DNA of 64,000 bases from Clostridia bacterium (GTDB taxonomy: Bacteria; Bacillota; Clostridia; Lutisporales; Lutisporaceae), in assembly GCA_029256325.1 (NCBI GenBank), contig JAQSYD010000026.1:1-64000 (forward strand), written 5' to 3'. Below are positions 7,115-38,053 of this stretch, in pieces (position 1 is the first letter of the stretch; every line of letters starts with the position of its first letter). Below the pieces are notes generated by a model. The model searched no databases. It was not told the origin of the DNA and worked only from the letters and a program-made list of their open reading frames with translations. The position numbers and the translations under genes are program-made.

Positions 7115-9028
7115 TTAGCTTAAACCTAACTTCTTACGTTTTGATATGATATGTGCTTCAATGTTATTTGCCACCTCAACAGGGTCATCACCTAATGCTA
7201 CCTTGCCGCCAGTCAAGCCTTCTACATCCTCTGTCAACAGCTTAGCTAATAATGGAGCCCCTGTCACAAAAGGTGTAGGAGACAGATGTGTATAAGCTCC
7301 ATAAGCTACAGCAAATATACCATCTATTGTTGCTTTTTGCTCCATCCACTCAGGTGCAGTAACCGCTATCGGAAGATCAGGTATATCAACATCAAGATGG
7401 TCAGCCAAAGCTGTAACCAGCATTGAAATTCTTCCTGTATCTGTGCAGGTACCAAAGCTTAATACCGGTGGTATCTTAAGCAGATTGCATACTGCCTTTA
7501 GACCTTCTCCTGCCATATCAGCCGCTTCTAAGCTGCAAAGTCCTGCTACTTCAAGTGCATGGTTTCCGCAACCTCCGGCTACTACTAAAATGTCTTTTTT
7601 AATTAATTCCTTCGTAAGATTTACTGTATTCCAGTCTTGAGGGCCGTTTCTTAAGGTTGAACAGTTTGCTAAGGCTACTACACCCTTTAGAGTTCCTGCT
7701 GCAATTACTTCAACCAGCGGATCAAGCTTGTTGCCAAGTGCCCCTAAAACTGCCTCAGTAGAGAAGCCTGCGATAGCCTTTTGAATCTTCTTAGGCACCA
7801 TTGGCTTTATTTTACCATGACGTTTTTTGAAGTTTTCAATTCCTAGTTCAATCAACCTTTCTGACATCTTATCAGCCTCTGCCGGATAATAAGGCATCTT
7901 CTCTTGTATGCGAGGTACGCCAATGATTGTGCTAATACTTACAAGTGCTACTTGATATTTTTCTGCATAGCTGTCAATTGCAGGTGGCGAGCAGTTTTCT
8001 TCCATTGCCAAAACGTCTATCCCACCTGTAGCCAGCATAGGTTCGATTGCAAGCCAGTTACCCATTAATCCTACAAATACGTCATCCATTTTATATCTTT
8101 GCAGCAGTTCTTGACCTGTTTCTATAGATCCTATTACTCTGATACCCTTTGCTCCTGCAGCTTTTCCTTTTGCCTGATACTCTGGACTTCTAAGTTTTTC
8201 TATCGTTACAGCACCAATCCAAGGCTGGTGTCCATTAAAAACAATATTGATATAGTCGGGATCTATGATCCCCAAGTCTGTATTAACCTCATGGGGCATT
8301 GGAGTTCCAAATATGATGTCCTGCACCATCTCAAGACCAATTTGCGAATTATATATAGTAGCCAAGCCTAGGCGAAGCGCTTTTACTGCAAGAGATACAT
8401 AGTCTCCATCTACGTTTGTCAAACAGCTGGCTACACAGTTTTGCTCTTCATGAACAGTACCCGCAGGATACATGTTTAGTTTTCTCCATACTTCTTTTCT
8501 TTTCTTAGGAGCAAAAGCTTCTACCATGAGGTTAGGCTCTTCTGTTCCGACATTTTGCTGGCGTTCAAGAAGGTCAGCAAGCTGTACTGCCATCTTATTA
8601 TTATCCTGATCTGTGCTTATACCAAGCTTCTCGCACATCCATTTCAGCTTGTTTTCATCTTTAATCTTGAAGTTTGATTTTCCTTCTCCTATAGACTTCA
8701 ATGTTCTATACGCCTCATAAGCATGATGACTGTATGTACCTGCACCTAAGGTGTTTTGTATCAAAAGCTTTCTCATTGCATTGGCATCAGGTCCTATGCC
8801 GCAAACACCTTTGTCAATACCCTTCTCCACATTCCATCGGCAGGGTCCATGTGAGCATAGCTGACAGCTCAAGCCTTCCAAACAGAATTTGCAGCGTATT
8901 TTCTCTTGCTGTACCCAACGATCAAACACATTGGTCATTCCGTCTTCCCTTATTCTAACTAGCATCTCCTCTACCGAATCATGATAGCTGACTCGGCCTT
9001 CTGTTTTTTCCAGAATAGTTTCTCCCAT
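7115..9028 (-). CDS. cooS: Carbon monoxide dehydrogenase catalytic subunit (Ni-Fe-S CODH)
   Basis: RCKFCLEGLSCQLCSHGPCRW cluster B/D motif, GTCTDTGR; start at 9028. Confidence 0.95.
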   Translation of the reverse strand: MGETILEKTEGRVSYHDSVEEMLVRIREDGMTNVFDRWVQQEKIRCKFCLEGLSCQLCSHGPCRWNVEKGIDKGVCGIGPDANAMRKLLIQNTLGAGTYSHHAYEAYRTLKSIGEGKSNFKIKDENKLKWMCEKLGISTDQDNNKMAVQLADLLERQQNVGTEEPNLMVEAFAPKKRKEVWRKLNMYPAGTVHEEQNCVASCLTNVDGDYVSLAVKALRLGLATIYNSQIGLEMVQDIIFGTPMPHEVNTDLGIIDPDYINIVFNGHQPWIGAVTIEKLRSPEYQAKGKAAGAKGIRVIGSIETGQELLQRYKMDDVFVGLMGNWLAIEPMLATGGIDVLAMEENCSPPAIDSYAEKYQVALVSISTIIGVPRIQEKMPYYPAEADKMSERLIELGIENFKKRHGKIKPMVPKKIQKAIAGFSTEAVLGALGNKLDPLVEVIAAGTLKGVVALANCSTLRNGPQDWNTVNLTKELIKKDILVVAGGCGNHALEVAGLCSLEAADMAGEGLKAVCNLLKIPPVLSFGTCTDTGRISMLVTALADHLDVDIPDLPIAVTAPEWMEQKATIDGIFAVAYGAYTHLSPTPFVTGAPLLAKLLTEDVEGLTGGKVALGDDPVEVANNIEAHIISKRKKLGLS

Positions 9029-9175
9029 TACAAAAGCTCCTTTCAAACATTGCCTTTTATGATCAATGCTGTAGATTTTCAATATTAGTATTGCGAATGA
9101 TTGGAATAATATACTCATATTGTGATAATGTATGTGTACTATACCAACCTACTTTTTTTGGGCAAATTTGCATAG

Positions 9176-9191
9176 TGTGACCGAAATCACA
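9176..9191. promoter_or_regulatory. FNR/CRP-type operator between cooS and RIC gene
   Basis: Perfect TGTGACCGAAATCACA (TGTGA-N6-TCACA). Confidence 0.65.
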
Positions 9192-9293
9192 TAAAGATGT
9201 AATATTTGTGTTTATAATAAAGACATAAGGATAAGAATTAAATGCTGTAATATGCAAAACCTAAAAGAGAACATTCAAATTGGAGGGATTTTT

Positions 9294-10016
9294 ATGAACA
9301 ATAAATTTTCAAGTGCCGATACAATCGGCAATATCGTTGTTAATTTTCCAAAAGCAATTGAAACCTTTAAGGAGTTCAATATTGATTTTTGTTGTGGTGG
9401 TCACAGACCGCTTGCCGAAGCACTAAAGGAACAAAACCTTAGTGAAAGTACAGTCATTGACAGGCTTAATCAGGAATATGAAAGCTTCAAGGACAGTATT
9501 CATTCCGATATCGACTGGAGAACTGCATCCTATTCTCAGTTAATCGATTATGTTGTACAAAAGCATCATACTTTTTTGCAAAATGAGCTGCCAGCGCTTG
9601 GCCAATTAGTAGCGAAAATACTCAGAGTCCATGGAGAGCATCACGTAGAGCTTGCCAGAGTTCACAAGCTTTTCAATAGCCTTAGAACTGAGCTTGAATC
9701 GCATTTAATAAAAGAAGAAGAGGTTCTTTTCCCCATTATTAAGAAATATGAAAAAGAGCCTTCCCCAGAGCTATTAGATAAAGCGCTAAAAACTATTACT
9801 GAACTGGAAAGCGAGCATACTGGCGCTGGAGATATTTTGAAGGAGCTTCGCAAAATTACGGACCAATATCAGACTCCCGCCGATGGCTGCACTACTTATA
9901 GCTTAACTTATCAAAAGCTATATGAACTGGAGTCAGACTTATTCCAGCACATACACATGGAAAACAACATCCTGTTCCCAAGGCTGCAAGCACTAAAGGG
10001 CGCACACGTACATTAA
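9294..10016 (+). CDS. scdA: Iron-sulfur cluster repair di-iron protein (RIC/ScdA/YtfE)
   Basis: NIDFCCGGHRPLAEAL N-terminal DUF542 motif plus hemerythrin HHE region; SD ggaggg. Confidence 0.92.
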   Translation: MNNKFSSADTIGNIVVNFPKAIETFKEFNIDFCCGGHRPLAEALKEQNLSESTVIDRLNQEYESFKDSIHSDIDWRTASYSQLIDYVVQKHHTFLQNELPALGQLVAKILRVHGEHHVELARVHKLFNSLRTELESHLIKEEEVLFPIIKKYEKEPSPELLDKALKTITELESEHTGAGDILKELRKITDQYQTPADGCTTYSLTYQKLYELESDLFQHIHMENNILFPRLQALKGAHVH

Positions 10017-10027
10017 CCTGTTTTTTT

Positions 10028-10099
10028 GGTGCCAGGCACCACGGATACAGGATATGATAACCTGATAACTGTGGTGCCTGGCACCATTGTTATCAGGTT
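10028..10099. repeat. Nested GGTGCC(A/T)GGCACC palindromic intergenic element, probable bidirectional terminator
   Basis: GGTGCCAGGCACC (10028-10040), GGTGCCTGGCACC (10073-10085), flanked by AACCTGATAAC/GTTATCAGGTT inverted repeat and T runs. Confidence 0.8.
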
Positions 10100-10100
10100 T

Positions 10101-10910
10101 TTAATAAGAATGATAGCCTGCCAGTATGGTATTTACACCAATGTAGGTGAAAAGTATAGATAAAAATCCTACCACTGCATACCAAGCGGCTTTTTTATTT
10201 TTCCAGCCTCTATTCAATCTCACATGCAGGTATATTGCATATATAATCCAGGTAATGAAGCTCCAGGTCTCTTTGGGGTCCCACTGCCAGTACCTTCCCC
10301 AAGCCCTTTCAGCCCAGATCGCACCTGTAATAATCACAATGGTAAGCATGAAAAATCCAAAGGTGATTGCCTTGTAGCTCATGTTGTCCAGTATACTTAA
10401 CTGCGGCATATGGTTGGAGGTAAAATCACTCTCCTTAAGCCGGTCACGTATTATGAACATAATAGACACAGCACAAGCAATTGCAAAGGAGCCATAGCTG
10501 AAAATGGCCGTACTGACGTGGACAAACAGCCATTTGCTCTGAAGCGCAGGCATAAGAGGCTTTATCTCTGAGGATTGAAGCGCTGCATAAAATGTCACAA
10601 TCAGTATCAAAGGTGTTGCAAAAGCACCTAAGCTTCTTATCTTATACTTCCATTCAAAACCTACAAAAAACAGCGATATACCCCAGGCAAAGCTGGTAGC
10701 AAATTCATATTGACTGGTTAGCGGCAAATAGCTGGTTTCTATAGTCCGCATAGCTAATGCTAACGTATGAAAAATTAAACCTGCTCTCACAAACCAGCTG
10801 CCATAGGTTGAAAGTTTAAGCTTTTTCGAAACCAAAAACATGATATAAGTTAAGGCAGCTAAGCTGTATAACATTAATGCCATTAAAAAACCTTGTTTTT
10901 CACTTAACAT
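10101..10910 (-). CDS. ccsA: Cytochrome c biogenesis protein CcsA/ResC-like
   Basis: WGRYWQWDPKETWSFITWIIYAIYLHVR WWD motif. Confidence 0.93.
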   Translation of the reverse strand: MLSEKQGFLMALMLYSLAALTYIMFLVSKKLKLSTYGSWFVRAGLIFHTLALAMRTIETSYLPLTSQYEFATSFAWGISLFFVGFEWKYKIRSLGAFATPLILIVTFYAALQSSEIKPLMPALQSKWLFVHVSTAIFSYGSFAIACAVSIMFIIRDRLKESDFTSNHMPQLSILDNMSYKAITFGFFMLTIVIITGAIWAERAWGRYWQWDPKETWSFITWIIYAIYLHVRLNRGWKNKKAAWYAVVGFLSILFTYIGVNTILAGYHSY

Positions 10911-12210
10911 CTATACCGTCCTCCTTGTTGTTTATAAAATTTTCTATGCTTAACGTATTCATTCCACTGTTGTTTCTATTTTGTTCTGCTGCTTTACCAT
11001 ATATGAACAGCATTTCCCCTTCTTGCTTTATGGCTAGTTCCCTTGGCTTCACATAAAAGGTTAGGGCTAAACCGAGAATAATAAGCAATCCTCCTATGGC
11101 AGCGCCTAGCTGTCCCCTCATTTTATTTACCTTCAGATAGGTATACCTCCTAAAGTTATCTATCGTAAAACTATAATCATTCCACTGGATATACTCTCCA
11201 GGCTTTACAATATCCATTTTAACAAGCTCATTCCTATAGAATATTGAATATAGCAAAGCGGGATTATTTGGTTTGTCGGACAGAGAACTAAAATTCATGC
11301 TATCTGCTGCAAAATCGGGATAAAACTTAGTGAGTGCTATAGCTATATTTTCCTCAGGAATATTCAGCGCAGTTTTTTCATATATTAATTGACTCTTTAG
11401 AGGTATAAAAGCTTTAAACGCCTCACACTCAGCTGCCCAGCCCATACTGGTTTGATAAAAACTATAGCCTCTATATCTCATTGGATTATTAACACTGATA
11501 CTTCCATGCTGCCGTTGTTCTCCTGAAGTATCTTGAAGCTGCAGCTCAGTGATGTACTGTTCAACAGATCCATCCTCCCGATAGCTCACATCAAAGGACC
11601 TGATCTCTGCAAAAACCTCTGTTCCTTCAAGGTTCATCCTTTCACCAGGCACACCAAATACCTCTCCCGAAAAAAAAGTTGCCTGCCCGTAGATATAGGA
11701 CAATATAATAAGCATGATACCCAAGTGCAGAAACCAAGACCCAAAATATCCAAGGGTATTTTTTGAAGAAAAATATATACCCTCCTTACATTTATACTTA
11801 AATATTCCTGCTGCCCCGTAGCCTTTAAAAATATAACTTAGAGCCAATGAATCATTCATTGGCTTGGTCAGCTTATACGAGCTTATTTTCTTCATAGCAG
11901 CAATATTATAGCGCTGCCTCACTTTTCTAATTGTTTTCCCCAGTCTCATTGTATTGCATAAAAGCAAGTTAATAGCTAAAGCCCCGAATAGCATCGCAAA
12001 TAATGAAGAGGTATATATATGGTCCAACCCCAAAATAAATATCAATTCAGCCAGATATTCGGAATAACCCTCTACATAGAACTGCACCTCTTGATTCTGA
12101 GGCAATATTGTACTGATGACTGACAGTATTAAAATGAATACCAATAAAAATATACCAAAGCCCATGGATTTCAAGAATCCAAGTCTTTGTAACAAGCCCT
12201 TACCCTTCAT
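10900..12210 (-). CDS. resB: Cytochrome c biogenesis protein ResB/Ccs1-like
   Basis: ResB-family protein with GSWFLHLGIMLIILSYIYGQ and MRYRGYSFYQTSMG, operon with ccsA. Confidence 0.9.
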   Translation of the reverse strand: MKGKGLLQRLGFLKSMGFGIFLLVFILILSVISTILPQNQEVQFYVEGYSEYLAELIFILGLDHIYTSSLFAMLFGALAINLLLCNTMRLGKTIRKVRQRYNIAAMKKISSYKLTKPMNDSLALSYIFKGYGAAGIFKYKCKEGIYFSSKNTLGYFGSWFLHLGIMLIILSYIYGQATFFSGEVFGVPGERMNLEGTEVFAEIRSFDVSYREDGSVEQYITELQLQDTSGEQRQHGSISVNNPMRYRGYSFYQTSMGWAAECEAFKAFIPLKSQLIYEKTALNIPEENIAIALTKFYPDFAADSMNFSSLSDKPNNPALLYSIFYRNELVKMDIVKPGEYIQWNDYSFTIDNFRRYTYLKVNKMRGQLGAAIGGLLIILGLALTFYVKPRELAIKQEGEMLFIYGKAAEQNRNNSGMNTLSIENFINNKEDGIDVK

Positions 12211-12296
12211 AAATCCTCCTTATAAAAAACTACAGCATGACGGCTATAGTTTTCCTCTATAACCACCTAGCTGTAGTTTTCCCATTTTCTTCAATA

Positions 12297-13544
12297 TTAT
12301 AGCTTCTCCACAATGTCTAATGCTTCTTCAGCATACTTCTCCGCATCATTTAAAGCGTCTTTAGCTTTTGTTTCATTATGGAAGCCTGTGCTGTTTTCAA
12401 CAAATACGAAATCCCATCTATACTGCGCTTTTCTGTGCAGACTTCTCAGGTTTTCCAGTGTTTTATCATCCAGCTTTTTAGCTTCTATTGCAGCTGTCAA
12501 ATCCTTCGTCAATTTCACTAGCTTGTCGCTGACATCTACTTCCATTTCGTCAATTTCCTTCTGTATTTTTTCAACTTCAACAACCATGTTCTTCGCTTGT
12601 GAACCATGACATTTACCGCAAGATTCTTCAGGTGTCTTTAAGGGGCTTTTTGCCCAGTGAGACCTATATTCCTGATTATTTTCAACTACCTTCGGCATAT
12701 GACAATCTACACAGCTAACCAGCATTGTGTCATGAGCGCTGCCAGAATACATCTCAAATTCCGGGTGCTGTACTTTTATCAGCTGTGTTCCTGTTCTGGG
12801 ATGCTCCCAATCATAAAAACCCATTTCATCATAATAGGACTCTATCTCATCCACGCCAATTCCATTTTTCCAAGGAAGTATAACCTGCTTGGTCTTTTTA
12901 TCAAAGTAGTATTCAACGTGACATTGGGCACAGGCTTGAGTTCCAACCTTCGGTTCATTTTTCAGCAGCTTCATGCCTTCGGAAAATTGAGGTGATGTAA
13001 TTTGCACCTTTTCTCCCGGCGTATTCCTATGACAGTTGTAGCAAGTAATACCAAATTCTACGTCTTGCACTGTCTCCTGAAAGTCTTTTGCAAATACAGC
13101 TTCTCCTTGCTCTACAATAAGCTTTTCATACTCCGATGTTTTACACGCCAGACAGGATGCTCCTGGTTTTGGTCTAGCAGTGCTCACCACGTCCTCAATT
13201 GCATAATAATGGCCTCTTGCCTTATAATACTCTTTACCAAAGCCTGTTCCTTCATAAAGTATCGCTATGTTTGGATTTTCTTTTAGATAATCGATAGGGT
13301 GCTGTCCTCCCAAATCTTCACTTTCTTTTGTCGCATCCCCCATCATTGAGGTTTTCATGAAGGATTCATAGACAAGGGGGTACTTATCCTTCCATTCCTT
13401 TGGATCCAGTATCATTTTATCAACTGCGGGTATATCTGGATTTACTGCTTGAGGAGGCTGTGGAGCCGGCTGTTCTTGCTGCGTACAGCTGCACAATGCA
13501 ATAATCGCTATAAAAACAAACAGTGACAAAATAACTTTTTTCAT
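12297..13544 (-). CDS. nrfA: Ammonia-forming cytochrome c552 nitrite reductase, lipoprotein form
   Basis: CxxCK (CLACK) plus four CxxCH (CYNCH, CAQCH, CVDCH, CGKCH); lipobox ALCSC. Confidence 0.93.
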   Translation of the reverse strand: MKKVILSLFVFIAIIALCSCTQQEQPAPQPPQAVNPDIPAVDKMILDPKEWKDKYPLVYESFMKTSMMGDATKESEDLGGQHPIDYLKENPNIAILYEGTGFGKEYYKARGHYYAIEDVVSTARPKPGASCLACKTSEYEKLIVEQGEAVFAKDFQETVQDVEFGITCYNCHRNTPGEKVQITSPQFSEGMKLLKNEPKVGTQACAQCHVEYYFDKKTKQVILPWKNGIGVDEIESYYDEMGFYDWEHPRTGTQLIKVQHPEFEMYSGSAHDTMLVSCVDCHMPKVVENNQEYRSHWAKSPLKTPEESCGKCHGSQAKNMVVEVEKIQKEIDEMEVDVSDKLVKLTKDLTAAIEAKKLDDKTLENLRSLHRKAQYRWDFVFVENSTGFHNETKAKDALNDAEKYAEEALDIVEKL

Positions 13545-13601
13545 ATGTATTCTCCTTTCCTGTAATTTTGATACTAGCACCGCAGATATCCTTATATCCG
13601 T

Positions 13602-13614
13602 GGTGCCTGGCACC
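13602..13614. repeat. GGTGCCTGGCACC palindrome, third copy of the intergenic element
   Basis: Flanks match the 10.03 kb copy (CACCACGGATA..AGGATAT on - strand). Confidence 0.8.
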
Positions 13615-13628
13615 ATAGAATCAGGTTT

Positions 13629-14816
13629 TTACAACTGAGCCGCCAGTTTCCGTCCAAATTCCTTACATTTTTCTATTCCTGCTTCGTCGGGCACCCAGAA
13701 TACCTTAAGACCTTCATCGATTAGTTCAAAGCCGCCCTTCTTCAATTCCTCATTTAATATTGCTACTGATTCCCCGCTCCAGCCATAGCTTCCAAAGGCA
13801 GCCGCTTTTTTGCCCTTAAAGGACAGACCTCGCATCATTTCCAGCAGTCCATCTATAGAATATAAAATACCTTTGTTTATGGTAGAAGAGCCTGCTATTA
13901 TAAGCTTAGACTTGAAAACTTCAGTTATTATATCATTTTTATCCGTTCTAGCAGTGTTATAAAGCTTTATTTCTACTTCATTGTTCGTACTCTTTATCCC
14001 CTCAGCAATTGCCTCTGCCATTTTTCTAGTGGCATCCCACATGGAATCATAGATCAAAGTCACTTGATTTTCATTGTAATCCTTTGCCCATTCCATGTAC
14101 TTATTTACAATTTGCAGCGGGTTGTCTCTCCAAATGATGCCATGGCTGGTGCAAATCATATTTACAGGCACATTCAGCGCTACTACTTCCTCAATCTTTT
14201 TCTCCACCAGCTTGCTAAAGGGAGTAAGTATGTTTGCATAATATTTGATGGCTTCGTGATATAGCTCTGCCTGATCTACCAGATCATTGAACATAAATTC
14301 TGAAGCATAGTGCTGTCCGAAAGCATCATTGCTAAACAGTATGCCATCACCGGTTAAGTAGCTGAACATTGTATCCGGCCAATGCAGCAGTCTTGCTTCT
14401 ATAAAAATAAAATCCTTGCTGCCTATGTTTAGCTTATCCCCAGTTTTCACTTCAACAAAATTCCAATCCTGATGATAATGTCCTTTCAAGGAGCTTACGC
14501 AATTCTTCGTGCAATAAATCGGTGTATTGGGGATCTCTCGCATCAACTCCGGCAGTGCTCCGCTGTGATCCGGTTCTCCATGGTTTATGATGATAGTATC
14601 AATTTTGTTTAAATCAATTTCCTTTTTTAAATTTTCTACAAATTCCTTGGCAAAGGGTCTCCACACAGTATCTATCAACACGGTCTTTTCCCCTCTTACT
14701 AAATACGAATTATAGCTGCTGCCTTTATGTGTGGAATATTCATCACCGTGAAACTTTCTAAGCTCCCAATCAATTTTCCCGACCCAGGTAACACTGTCAT
14801 TAATCTTAAAGCTCAT
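13629..14816 (-). CDS. Flavodiiron protein FprA, copy 1
   Basis: HGEPDHSGALPELM di-iron beta-lactamase motif plus C-terminal flavodoxin domain; start at MSFKIND (14816). Confidence 0.93.
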   Translation of the reverse strand: MSFKINDSVTWVGKIDWELRKFHGDEYSTHKGSSYNSYLVRGEKTVLIDTVWRPFAKEFVENLKKEIDLNKIDTIIINHGEPDHSGALPELMREIPNTPIYCTKNCVSSLKGHYHQDWNFVEVKTGDKLNIGSKDFIFIEARLLHWPDTMFSYLTGDGILFSNDAFGQHYASEFMFNDLVDQAELYHEAIKYYANILTPFSKLVEKKIEEVVALNVPVNMICTSHGIIWRDNPLQIVNKYMEWAKDYNENQVTLIYDSMWDATRKMAEAIAEGIKSTNNEVEIKLYNTARTDKNDIITEVFKSKLIIAGSSTINKGILYSIDGLLEMMRGLSFKGKKAAAFGSYGWSGESVAILNEELKKGGFELIDEGLKVFWVPDEAGIEKCKEFGRKLAAQL

Positions 14817-14962
14817 ACAATCATCCTCCATCATCAAATTGTTTTTCATAAACATTAACAAAAATATTATTATCCACAAAGAGTTTTTATAACCATATAT
14901 TTTGTCGTGATTCAAAAGCCCTTTGAATATAATTTAAGGAATGCAATTACTGGAGGGGCACT

Positions 14963-34463: not shown

Positions 34464-34507
34464 TTATATAAAAAGACCATGAATATTTAATATTCATGGT
34501 CTTTTTA
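34464..34507 (-). terminator. Intrinsic terminator after the small UGA-containing ORF
   Basis: AAAAAGACCATGAATATT / AATATTCATGGTCTTTTT hairpin (- strand). Confidence 0.75.
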
Positions 34508-34511
34508 CACA

Positions 34512-34664
34512 CTATCTTCGTCCAATAAAATTGTCTTTTTTATATTTGTTCTCTGCTTTACAAGCAGTGTCATGGATGCCTCATTGTCCATAGAAATCAA
34601 ATAATTCTTTGCCCATTTCTACATTTTTGTTTTTCTTAAAGTAATCACAGTTTTCGCACTTCAT
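34512..34664 (-). CDS. Candidate 50-aa selenoprotein/UGA-readthrough CxxC protein (27 aa if UGA is a stop)
   Basis: Strong SD GGAGGTG; MKCENCDYFKKNKNVEMGKELFDFYGQ-[UGA]-GIHDTACKAENKYKKDNFIGRR*; 6-bp hairpin CTGCTT-GTA-AAGCAG 13 nt after UGA. Confidence 0.55.
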
Positions 34665-34709
34665 TGTATCACCTCCATGATACAATTAGTTTTTGTTTTT
34701 CTTTAAGTT

Positions 34710-35489
34710 CTATGCTTTTTTCTCCAGACTGTGTACAAAGTTATCCCATTTATCATAAAAATCGCTTCCAAATTTCAAATCTGTTTCATCAAATTTAACT
34801 TGCAGCTCATCTATTTGAGCAGCACTCATTCCCTTTTCAATCCATGGATATAATATTTCATCCTCTTTCTTGATATGCTCTGATAAAAGTTCTCTATAAT
34901 GCTTCAAGCTGTAGGTAATAAAAGAAGCATCTCCTGTTTCCAGACCTAAAAGCACAGATTTTACATAATATCTGCCCTTTTTATGGTCCTCCAACATAAC
35001 ACTGATGATATCTGTGTTGCCTTTTGCATAAGCAAATAGTATATCCTCTTCCTTGGCATGATGGAATTTGTCTGCAAATTGTCTTATAAATTCTACACTT
35101 TTAAGTATAACTTCTCTATTGCTTTCTAAATCTGCATTCACGCTGTCACATACATCAGGTATTAATGCCAAAAGTCTTTTAATAAGAGTATGTTCAGCAA
35201 CTAGTCTATGAATTGGCTCTGCATATATTATTTCTCTTGGAGTCAGCATATTGAGATCTTCCATAGCTTCCTCAGCAGCTGTATCATTTCCCTCTATAAC
35301 AGCCTCAATTTTTTTCATCATTTCTGCTTCTATATGCTTTGGTACATTGTGTATTTCAATGATATCCTTTAACAAGCAGGTTCCAACGCTGCAAGTAACA
35401 CAGCCTATTTCATAATCATTCAGTATTGTTCCTACTTTAGGAAACTCTGTAATAACTGATTTAATTGTACTATTTAAATACTTTTCCAT
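34710..35489 (-). CDS. Hemerythrin-domain protein with N-terminal cysteine-containing region
   Basis: YEIGCVTCSVGTCLLKDIIEIHNVP; hemerythrin motifs FHHAKEEDILFAY, HIKKEDEILYPW. Confidence 0.82.
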   Translation of the reverse strand: MEKYLNSTIKSVITEFPKVGTILNDYEIGCVTCSVGTCLLKDIIEIHNVPKHIEAEMMKKIEAVIEGNDTAAEEAMEDLNMLTPREIIYAEPIHRLVAEHTLIKRLLALIPDVCDSVNADLESNREVILKSVEFIRQFADKFHHAKEEDILFAYAKGNTDIISVMLEDHKKGRYYVKSVLLGLETGDASFITYSLKHYRELLSEHIKKEDEILYPWIEKGMSAAQIDELQVKFDETDLKFGSDFYDKWDNFVHSLEKKA

Positions 35490-37176: not shown

Positions 37177-37779
37177 ATGATGTCTCACAAATTTGATATA
37201 AAACATAAACAAAAGCTAGACAGCCCAAGACGCCGGAAAGTGCTTCCCCCAAAAGAGGTATTGTTGAAGCTTGGTCTTTCTAATACAGATACTTTCGCTG
37301 ACATTGGATGTGGTATAGGATATTTCACCCTTCCTGCTGCACAAATTCTAGATGAAACAGGTAAAGTTTATGCTGTGGATGTCTCACAGGAAATGCTAGA
37401 GGAAGTAAAGAAATCCGCTGAAGAAAATGCCTTTACCAATATTGAATTAATTAAAAGTGAAGAATACGCTTTGCCACTGCCGGATGACAGTGTAAGCTAT
37501 TGCTTCAGTTGTAATGTATTGCATGAAATAAAAGACCTAAAGCATTTTATAAAAGAGCTTATTAGAATAGTGAAAAAGAATGGAAAGCTTGTTATTATAG
37601 AATGGAACGATCATATAGCAGACTGGGGACCTAGCGCAGATCATAGACTGCCTAGCAGTGTGTTACAAGAACTGATTCAAGCAGAAGGCTTGCAGGTAGA
37701 TTCGCCTATAGATATAGGAGGCTATTTCTATGGACTTATATGCAGAAAGGATTATAATGATGAGACAAAAACTGATTAG
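37177..37779 (+). CDS. Class I SAM-dependent methyltransferase
   Basis: FADIGCGIGYFTLPAAQILDETGKVYAVDVSQEMLEE; SD aaggagg. Confidence 0.88.
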   Translation: MMSHKFDIKHKQKLDSPRRRKVLPPKEVLLKLGLSNTDTFADIGCGIGYFTLPAAQILDETGKVYAVDVSQEMLEEVKKSAEENAFTNIELIKSEEYALPLPDDSVSYCFSCNVLHEIKDLKHFIKELIRIVKKNGKLVIIEWNDHIADWGPSADHRLPSSVLQELIQAEGLQVDSPIDIGGYFYGLICRKDYNDETKTD

Positions 37780-38053
37780 TGTTGCCTCCATCTTTACAGC
37801 GCTGGCTGCCTCCCTCTGTTGAAGCGGCGGCCTAATTTTGGCCTCCCTAGGTTTGGGAGCATCAGGCTTTGCCTTTCTAGGCGGTTTATCAAAATATAGA
37901 AGCTTGTTTGTTATTTTAACAGGCATTATGCTAGCAGCTGGTTATTGGCTTATGGAGTCCAAAAATACAAGTAAATCAAGCAAAATCGTATACTGGATTT
38001 CTGCAGTATTGGCGATCTTCATGCTATATCTTCCTACTATTTTAAGTTTATGA
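37757..38053 (+). CDS. MerT-like small membrane protein, candidate selenoprotein (UGA 37820-37822)
   Basis: MMRQKLISVASIFTALAASLC-U-SGGLILASLGLGASGFAFLGGLSKYRSLFVILTGIMLAAGYWLMESK...; MerT-like CC motif position occupied by C-UGA; hairpin CTCCC-TAGGTTT-GGGAG downstream. Confidence 0.75.

Follow-up and report, generated by a model that had tools for sequence, protein, structure and literature searches.

A 50-residue protein encoded beside a hemerythrin gene in one lineage of uncultured Clostridia is a probable selenoprotein of an apparently uncatalogued family

The locus lies on the minus strand of the window, by which we mean the whole 64,000-nucleotide stretch of DNA that was analyzed, and consists of a hemerythrin-domain gene followed by a short gene whose frame is interrupted by a UGA codon. 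Upon re-reading the sequence, we found the frame, the codons and the coordinates given in the initial annotation to be correct; its description of the gene was likewise accurate, although the minus strand had been left unstated. The features, in the direction of transcription, are as follows.

34710..35489, minus strand: upstream gene, 259 aa, with a DUF1858-like N-terminus (CVTCSVGTC) and a hemerythrin domain, from Pfam and NCBIfam profiles
34670..34676, minus strand: Shine-Dalgarno-like GGAGGTG, from sequence
34512..34664, minus strand: coding sequence of the putative selenoprotein, 50 aa, MKCENCDYFKKNKNVEMGKELFDFYGQ-U-GIHDTACKAENKYKKDNFIGRR, with a TAG stop, translated with the UGA read through
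34664-34662, minus strand: start codon ATG
34581..34583, minus strand: in-frame UGA at codon 28, putatively decoded as selenocysteine (Sec); UGA in 6/6 genes of the subfamily, Cys (TGY) in relatives
34553..34567, minus strand: SECIS-like hairpin CTGCTT-GTA-AAGCAG, intact in all six UGA genes
34514-34512, minus strand: stop codon TAG
34470..34506, minus strand: terminator-like inverted repeat AAAAAGACCATGAATATT-A-AATATTCATGGTCTTTTT, ending in T, read directly, 5 nt after the TAG

The hairpin is separated from the UGA by 13 nt, and its loop by 19 nt. The inverted repeat was not flagged by a consensus terminator scan; comparable inverted repeats lie 3′ of the TAG or TAA in the other UGA genes.

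A UGA at the same codon was found in six genes: the window gene and those at loci L042, L043, L044, L045 and L046. All six come from one uncultured Clostridia lineage and have the common frame MKCxxC...GQ-UGA-G...ACKAE, the other five proteins being 60-86% identical to that of the window; the leader TCATGGAGGTGATACA-ATG is common to the window gene and L042, L044, L045 and L046. When the 22 genomes of the taxonomic family were searched, four further genes had exactly one TGA, in the same place and all within the same genus, and nine genes were free of stops and carried Cys instead. The Cys relatives within this family number at least nine, a paralogue in the window's own genome included. A scan of GTDB genomes recovered L042, L044, L045 and L046 and added the fifth UGA gene, L043, from another bin. 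Sec and Cys paralogues occur side by side in the window's genome and in three others (G009, G011 and G012). Outside the taxonomic family, a class sample of 392 genomes yielded Cys relatives only; the more distant ones, in other Clostridia, include those of two MAGs (L051 and L053) and of Petroclostridium sp. X23 (L052). Since a phylum sample of 399 genomes gave no relatives beyond the window's own genome, the family looks narrow, and all of the UGA genes found represent one narrow lineage. One MAG, G011, contains two different UGA copies (L042 and L044), each behind its own hemerythrin gene, which may mean that the gene was truly duplicated or that two strains or species were placed in one bin.

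In every Cys relative that we aligned, the column of the UGA is occupied by Cys (TGY). These relatives align over nearly the full length of the window protein, and in most of them the frame stays open to a similar length. Homologs that consistently ended at this position would have spoken against a selenoprotein; what we found there was either UGA or Cys, after which the frame reads on. C3, C6 and C/U28 are among the residues invariant over 13 sequences. The C3-x2-C6 pair is accordingly constant, and one further Cys, C35, is present in the UGA genes. Because the same UGA recurs in five other genes and the frame downstream of it is conserved, the arrangement is more than a chance occurrence.

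The protein encoded upstream matches the Pfam Hemerythrin profile (6.8e-18) and, weakly, DUF1858 (0.031), and its N-terminus weakly resembles the TIGR03980 redox-disulfide domain (4.8e-4). Its predicted structure had a pLDDT of 68; Foldseek gave no match to this model at E 0.001, with YtfE ranking first at E 0.14 and superposing poorly, and a sequence search of the PDB with the protein gave no match. At all five loci for which upstream sequence was available, the UGA gene follows a hemerythrin gene on the same strand at a distance of 46-139 nt, and the hemerythrin proteins of these loci are 74.7-100% identical to the window's. The link to hemerythrin proposed in the initial annotation therefore holds for the UGA genes (5/5), but it does not extend to the Cys homologs, and in one member of the genus the hemerythrin gene is present but the small gene is not.

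We consider it close to an even chance that the small gene encodes a selenoprotein with no functional tie to its neighbor, the adjacency being simply gene order at the level of the genus. The wider gene order is common to close relatives. The surroundings of L044, L045 and L046 include a CRP/FNR-like gene and a gene that starts like the window's flavodiiron protein. Cys paralogues do not neighbor this hemerythrin gene; cupin and RluD-like genes are examples of what they lie next to. The small gene is missing from two relatives that do have the hemerythrin gene, G010 and G014; in G010 (L087, contig C107), the gene after the hemerythrin ortholog (71% identity) is the one found downstream of the UGA gene in L045. 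On the other hand, the pair keeps its spacing and strand down to 60% identity, and it is kept where the genes further downstream differ (L042 vs. L044 and L045). Since G010 and G014 lack the small gene, the partnership is not obligatory, and the selenoprotein would be an accessory rather than a fixed subunit. At L051 and L053, the Cys homolog is preceded by two small genes (~67-90 aa) in the same order in both, whose products by eye resemble spore coat or ferritin-like proteins.

Among genes for NO defense, the window also encodes a flavodiiron protein of the NO reductase type (757 bits against NF008887, above its cut-off), a confirmed CRP/FNR-type regulator of the CRP family, the iron-sulfur repair protein RIC (9252-10016, 264 bits, over the TIGR03652 cut-off) and an NrfA-like cytochrome c552 (12297-13616). 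With its stretch from 7115 to 14915, the window is rich in genes for nitrite and NO handling. By eye, a carbon monoxide dehydrogenase-like open reading frame lies at 7115-9118 and a second flavodiiron-like protein at 13629-14915. A literature search for hemerythrin together with a selenoprotein or with DUF1858 returned nothing relevant.

If the UGA were an ordinary stop, the gene would encode a 27-residue peptide, and the remainder would be untranslated or decaying. Little room is needed for this reading, with a TAG or TAA and a terminator close by, and the hairpin, taken alone, is weak. The Cys homologs, however, run through the site to about the same length, and the six UGA genes keep both the frame and the residues after the UGA: when these genes were pooled, codons 29-50 had a pN of 0.22, a pS of 0.55 and a dN/dS of about 0.26, and codons 2-27 had a pN of 0.11 and a pS of 0.77. 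Moreover, a profile built from Cys sequences only recognized the isolated post-UGA peptide in five of the six UGA genes (E 3e-7 to 0.007); the window's own post-UGA peptide scored 5.2 bits by itself, inside the range of shuffled sequences (best shuffle, 8.7). Judged by these comparisons, the post-UGA sequence shows protein-like evolution. The dN/dS value, the matches to the Cys-only profile and the Cys homologs together make an ordinary stop very unlikely, and we rejected this reading, along with that of a nonsense mutation, on the basis of the six UGA genes, the Cys homologs and the evolution of the post-UGA sequence.

The absence of Sec machinery would have been a second argument against the proposal, and the machinery is present. 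The window's genome contains an apparent selD-selA-selB operon, in which selB and selD were recognized from their sequence and their position in the operon, and SelA is found here and in each of the taxonomic family's 22 genomes. An Rfam search of the whole genome identified a tRNA-Sec candidate on the same contig (49.8 bits vs. a cut-off of 47); ARAGORN reported no tRNA in the sel region examined. The genome's own SelD has an in-frame UGA, TKSSG-UGA-AAKIG (L029 1601-1603, contig C55 of G000), which we take to be the well-known Sec position of SelD and which causes standard ORF calling to truncate the gene. That the UGA of the small gene is read through by other means, as Trp or by near-cognate suppression, draws on the fact that Sec insertion here is deduced from sequence and on a hairpin that misses the published energy threshold, but we find this scarcely credible given that the relatives have Cys rather than Trp at the site, that the Sec system is complete with SelD using the same codon, and that ten window ORFs of at least 100 aa end in TGA (these being mechanically called ORFs, the last point is only suggestive).

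We conclude that the locus very probably encodes a genuine 50-residue selenoprotein with Sec inserted at codon 28, as the initial annotation had proposed. The equivalence of UGA and Cys in the alignment, the protein-like evolution after the UGA and the full Sec machinery are the grounds for this assignment.

The hairpin contributes less. The published consensus model of bacterial SECIS elements specifies an upper stem of 4-16 bp, a loop of 3-9 nt that begins 16-37 nt from the UGA and has a G in its first two bases, and a minimum free energy of at most -7.5 kcal/mol (PMC13188914, Fig 2A). All six UGA genes have this geometry, with a 6 bp stem, a GUA loop and a 19 nt spacing. At -5.8 kcal/mol, the window hairpin misses the energy cut-off; the L045 hairpin passes it (-12.7 kcal/mol), that of L043 passes in one of the two stretches folded (-6.4 or -9.3 kcal/mol), and the energies of the hairpins in the UGA genes other than these two are -5.8 to -6.7 kcal/mol. 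Pairing is intact in 36/36 pair cells in the six UGA genes; the six Cys genes compared lack the hairpin, with 31% of cells paired in the corresponding columns. Five of the stem pairs are invariant, and the sixth changes from U-A to U-G (AAA to AAG in L046), a single-sided substitution that keeps the pairing; the compensatory variation that had been suggested as a check, in its double-sided form, does not occur in the stem among the six UGA genes. Third positions vary less inside the hairpin than elsewhere, at the margin of significance (Fisher p 0.10; 0.047 when codon 33 is included). Synonymous recoding of the window protein also yields a 6-bp stem at this place in 14% of cases, and the folding energy does not stand out (z -0.6). 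Taken by itself, the hairpin could be a product of chance, and we rejected it as independent proof of Sec. We regard it as a plausible, weak SECIS and as likely to be the element responsible.

The small protein had no match among Pfam and NCBIfam profiles at E values up to 1. A recent catalogue lists 119 prokaryotic selenoprotein families and subfamilies (PMC13188914 [2026], Table 1), and on reading through it we saw no entry that fitted the 50-aa protein. Relative to these three sources, the family is apparently uncatalogued. The nearest catalogue entry by name and motif is the dual-CxxC small selenoprotein NF041197 (OS_HP3, or hypothetical protein DW), which is also a small CxxC selenoprotein, with a model of 53 positions and a GxU/RxU motif (PMC13188914, Table 1) comparable to the G-Q-U of the window protein. 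In contrast to that dual-CxxC family, the window protein has no second CxxC and has U-x6-C instead. Membership in NF041197 was rejected, as a search of the window's own genome at E up to 10 gave no match at the locus (cut-off, 40 bits). DUF1858-domain selenoproteins (PF08984, CxxU) form a redox-disulfide family with Sec forms (PMC13188914), and the neighboring hemerythrin protein is DUF1858-like; however, this domain has no match in the small protein, and the neighbor has Cys rather than Sec. The neighbor also resembles RIC/YtfE/ScdA (TIGR03652, E 1.7e-6) in combining an N-terminal Cys domain with hemerythrin, but it scores 28 of 204.7 bits, far below the cut-off, and the genome encodes a separate RIC protein. 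Structure prediction for the small protein gave no usable fold (pLDDT 47). Its one PDB sequence match, a designed PPR protein, was dismissed for want of a significant stretch.

The cysteines of the family suggest how the Sec form may have arisen. Cys relatives from sister genera have all five of C3, C6, C28, C35 and C41. In most Cys paralogues of the genus, C41 remains but C35 has been lost; five of the six UGA genes show the opposite pattern, with C35 retained and C41 lost, and L046 has both. We infer from this pattern that a five-Cys ancestor was duplicated, each copy keeping four functional residues, and that the hemerythrin-linked copy would have undergone the change from Cys to Sec. With 50 residues, the tree does not have the power to establish whether Sec had a single origin.

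We somewhat favor the view that C3, C6, U28 and C35 form a site that either binds metal through four ligands or carries out thiol/selenol redox chemistry. The initial suggestion that a metal-ligand Cys would be expected at the position of U28 is plausible as a putative role.

Taken together, the features of the locus suggest the following course of events. The hemerythrin and selenoprotein genes, presumably co-transcribed, would be translated from a single mRNA, and at codon 28 SelB, helped by the downstream hairpin as putative SECIS, would deliver Sec-tRNA at the UGA. Sec insertion would then allow the ribosome to read on to the TAG that precedes the terminator; when selenium is absent, a 27-residue fragment would be expected. 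As to function, adjacency and gene context lead us to propose, tentatively, that the small protein is a redox partner of the hemerythrin protein, acting through its metal or thiol site, in defense against NO, O2 or peroxide. Under such stress, it would most likely keep the DUF1858-like/hemerythrin di-iron protein reduced or loaded. A fuller version, which we regard as doubtful, would make Sec28 the selenolate ligand or redox partner in a C3-C6-U28-C35 site of a protein dedicated to the hemerythrin di-iron protein, forming a selenium-dependent branch of NO, O2 and peroxide defense, with descent from a duplicated five-Cys ancestor whose copies kept different fourth cysteines.

A second UGA frame was observed in the window at 37730-38053 on the plus strand, a MerT-like membrane protein with AASLC-UGA-SGG, in which the UGA stands beside a Cys. 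With the UGA read as Cys, this frame matched PF02411 (6.2e-6) and NF033560 (8.8e-13), both below cut-off, and an 8-bp hairpin lies downstream. This frame is probably the first selenoprotein candidate of the initial annotation. Sec forms of mercuric transport proteins have been catalogued (PMC13188914).

Annotation routinely overlooks or truncates small genes that contain a UGA, and the present gene would add to the smaller selenoprotein families a new one that is apparently uncatalogued. The Sec and Cys paralogues in the same genomes offer a built-in comparison for asking why Sec is used here and Cys there. If the partnership is real, then it would link selenium to defense against NO and O2 in anaerobes, in a context of hemerythrin, flavodiiron, RIC and nitrite reductase-like proteins.
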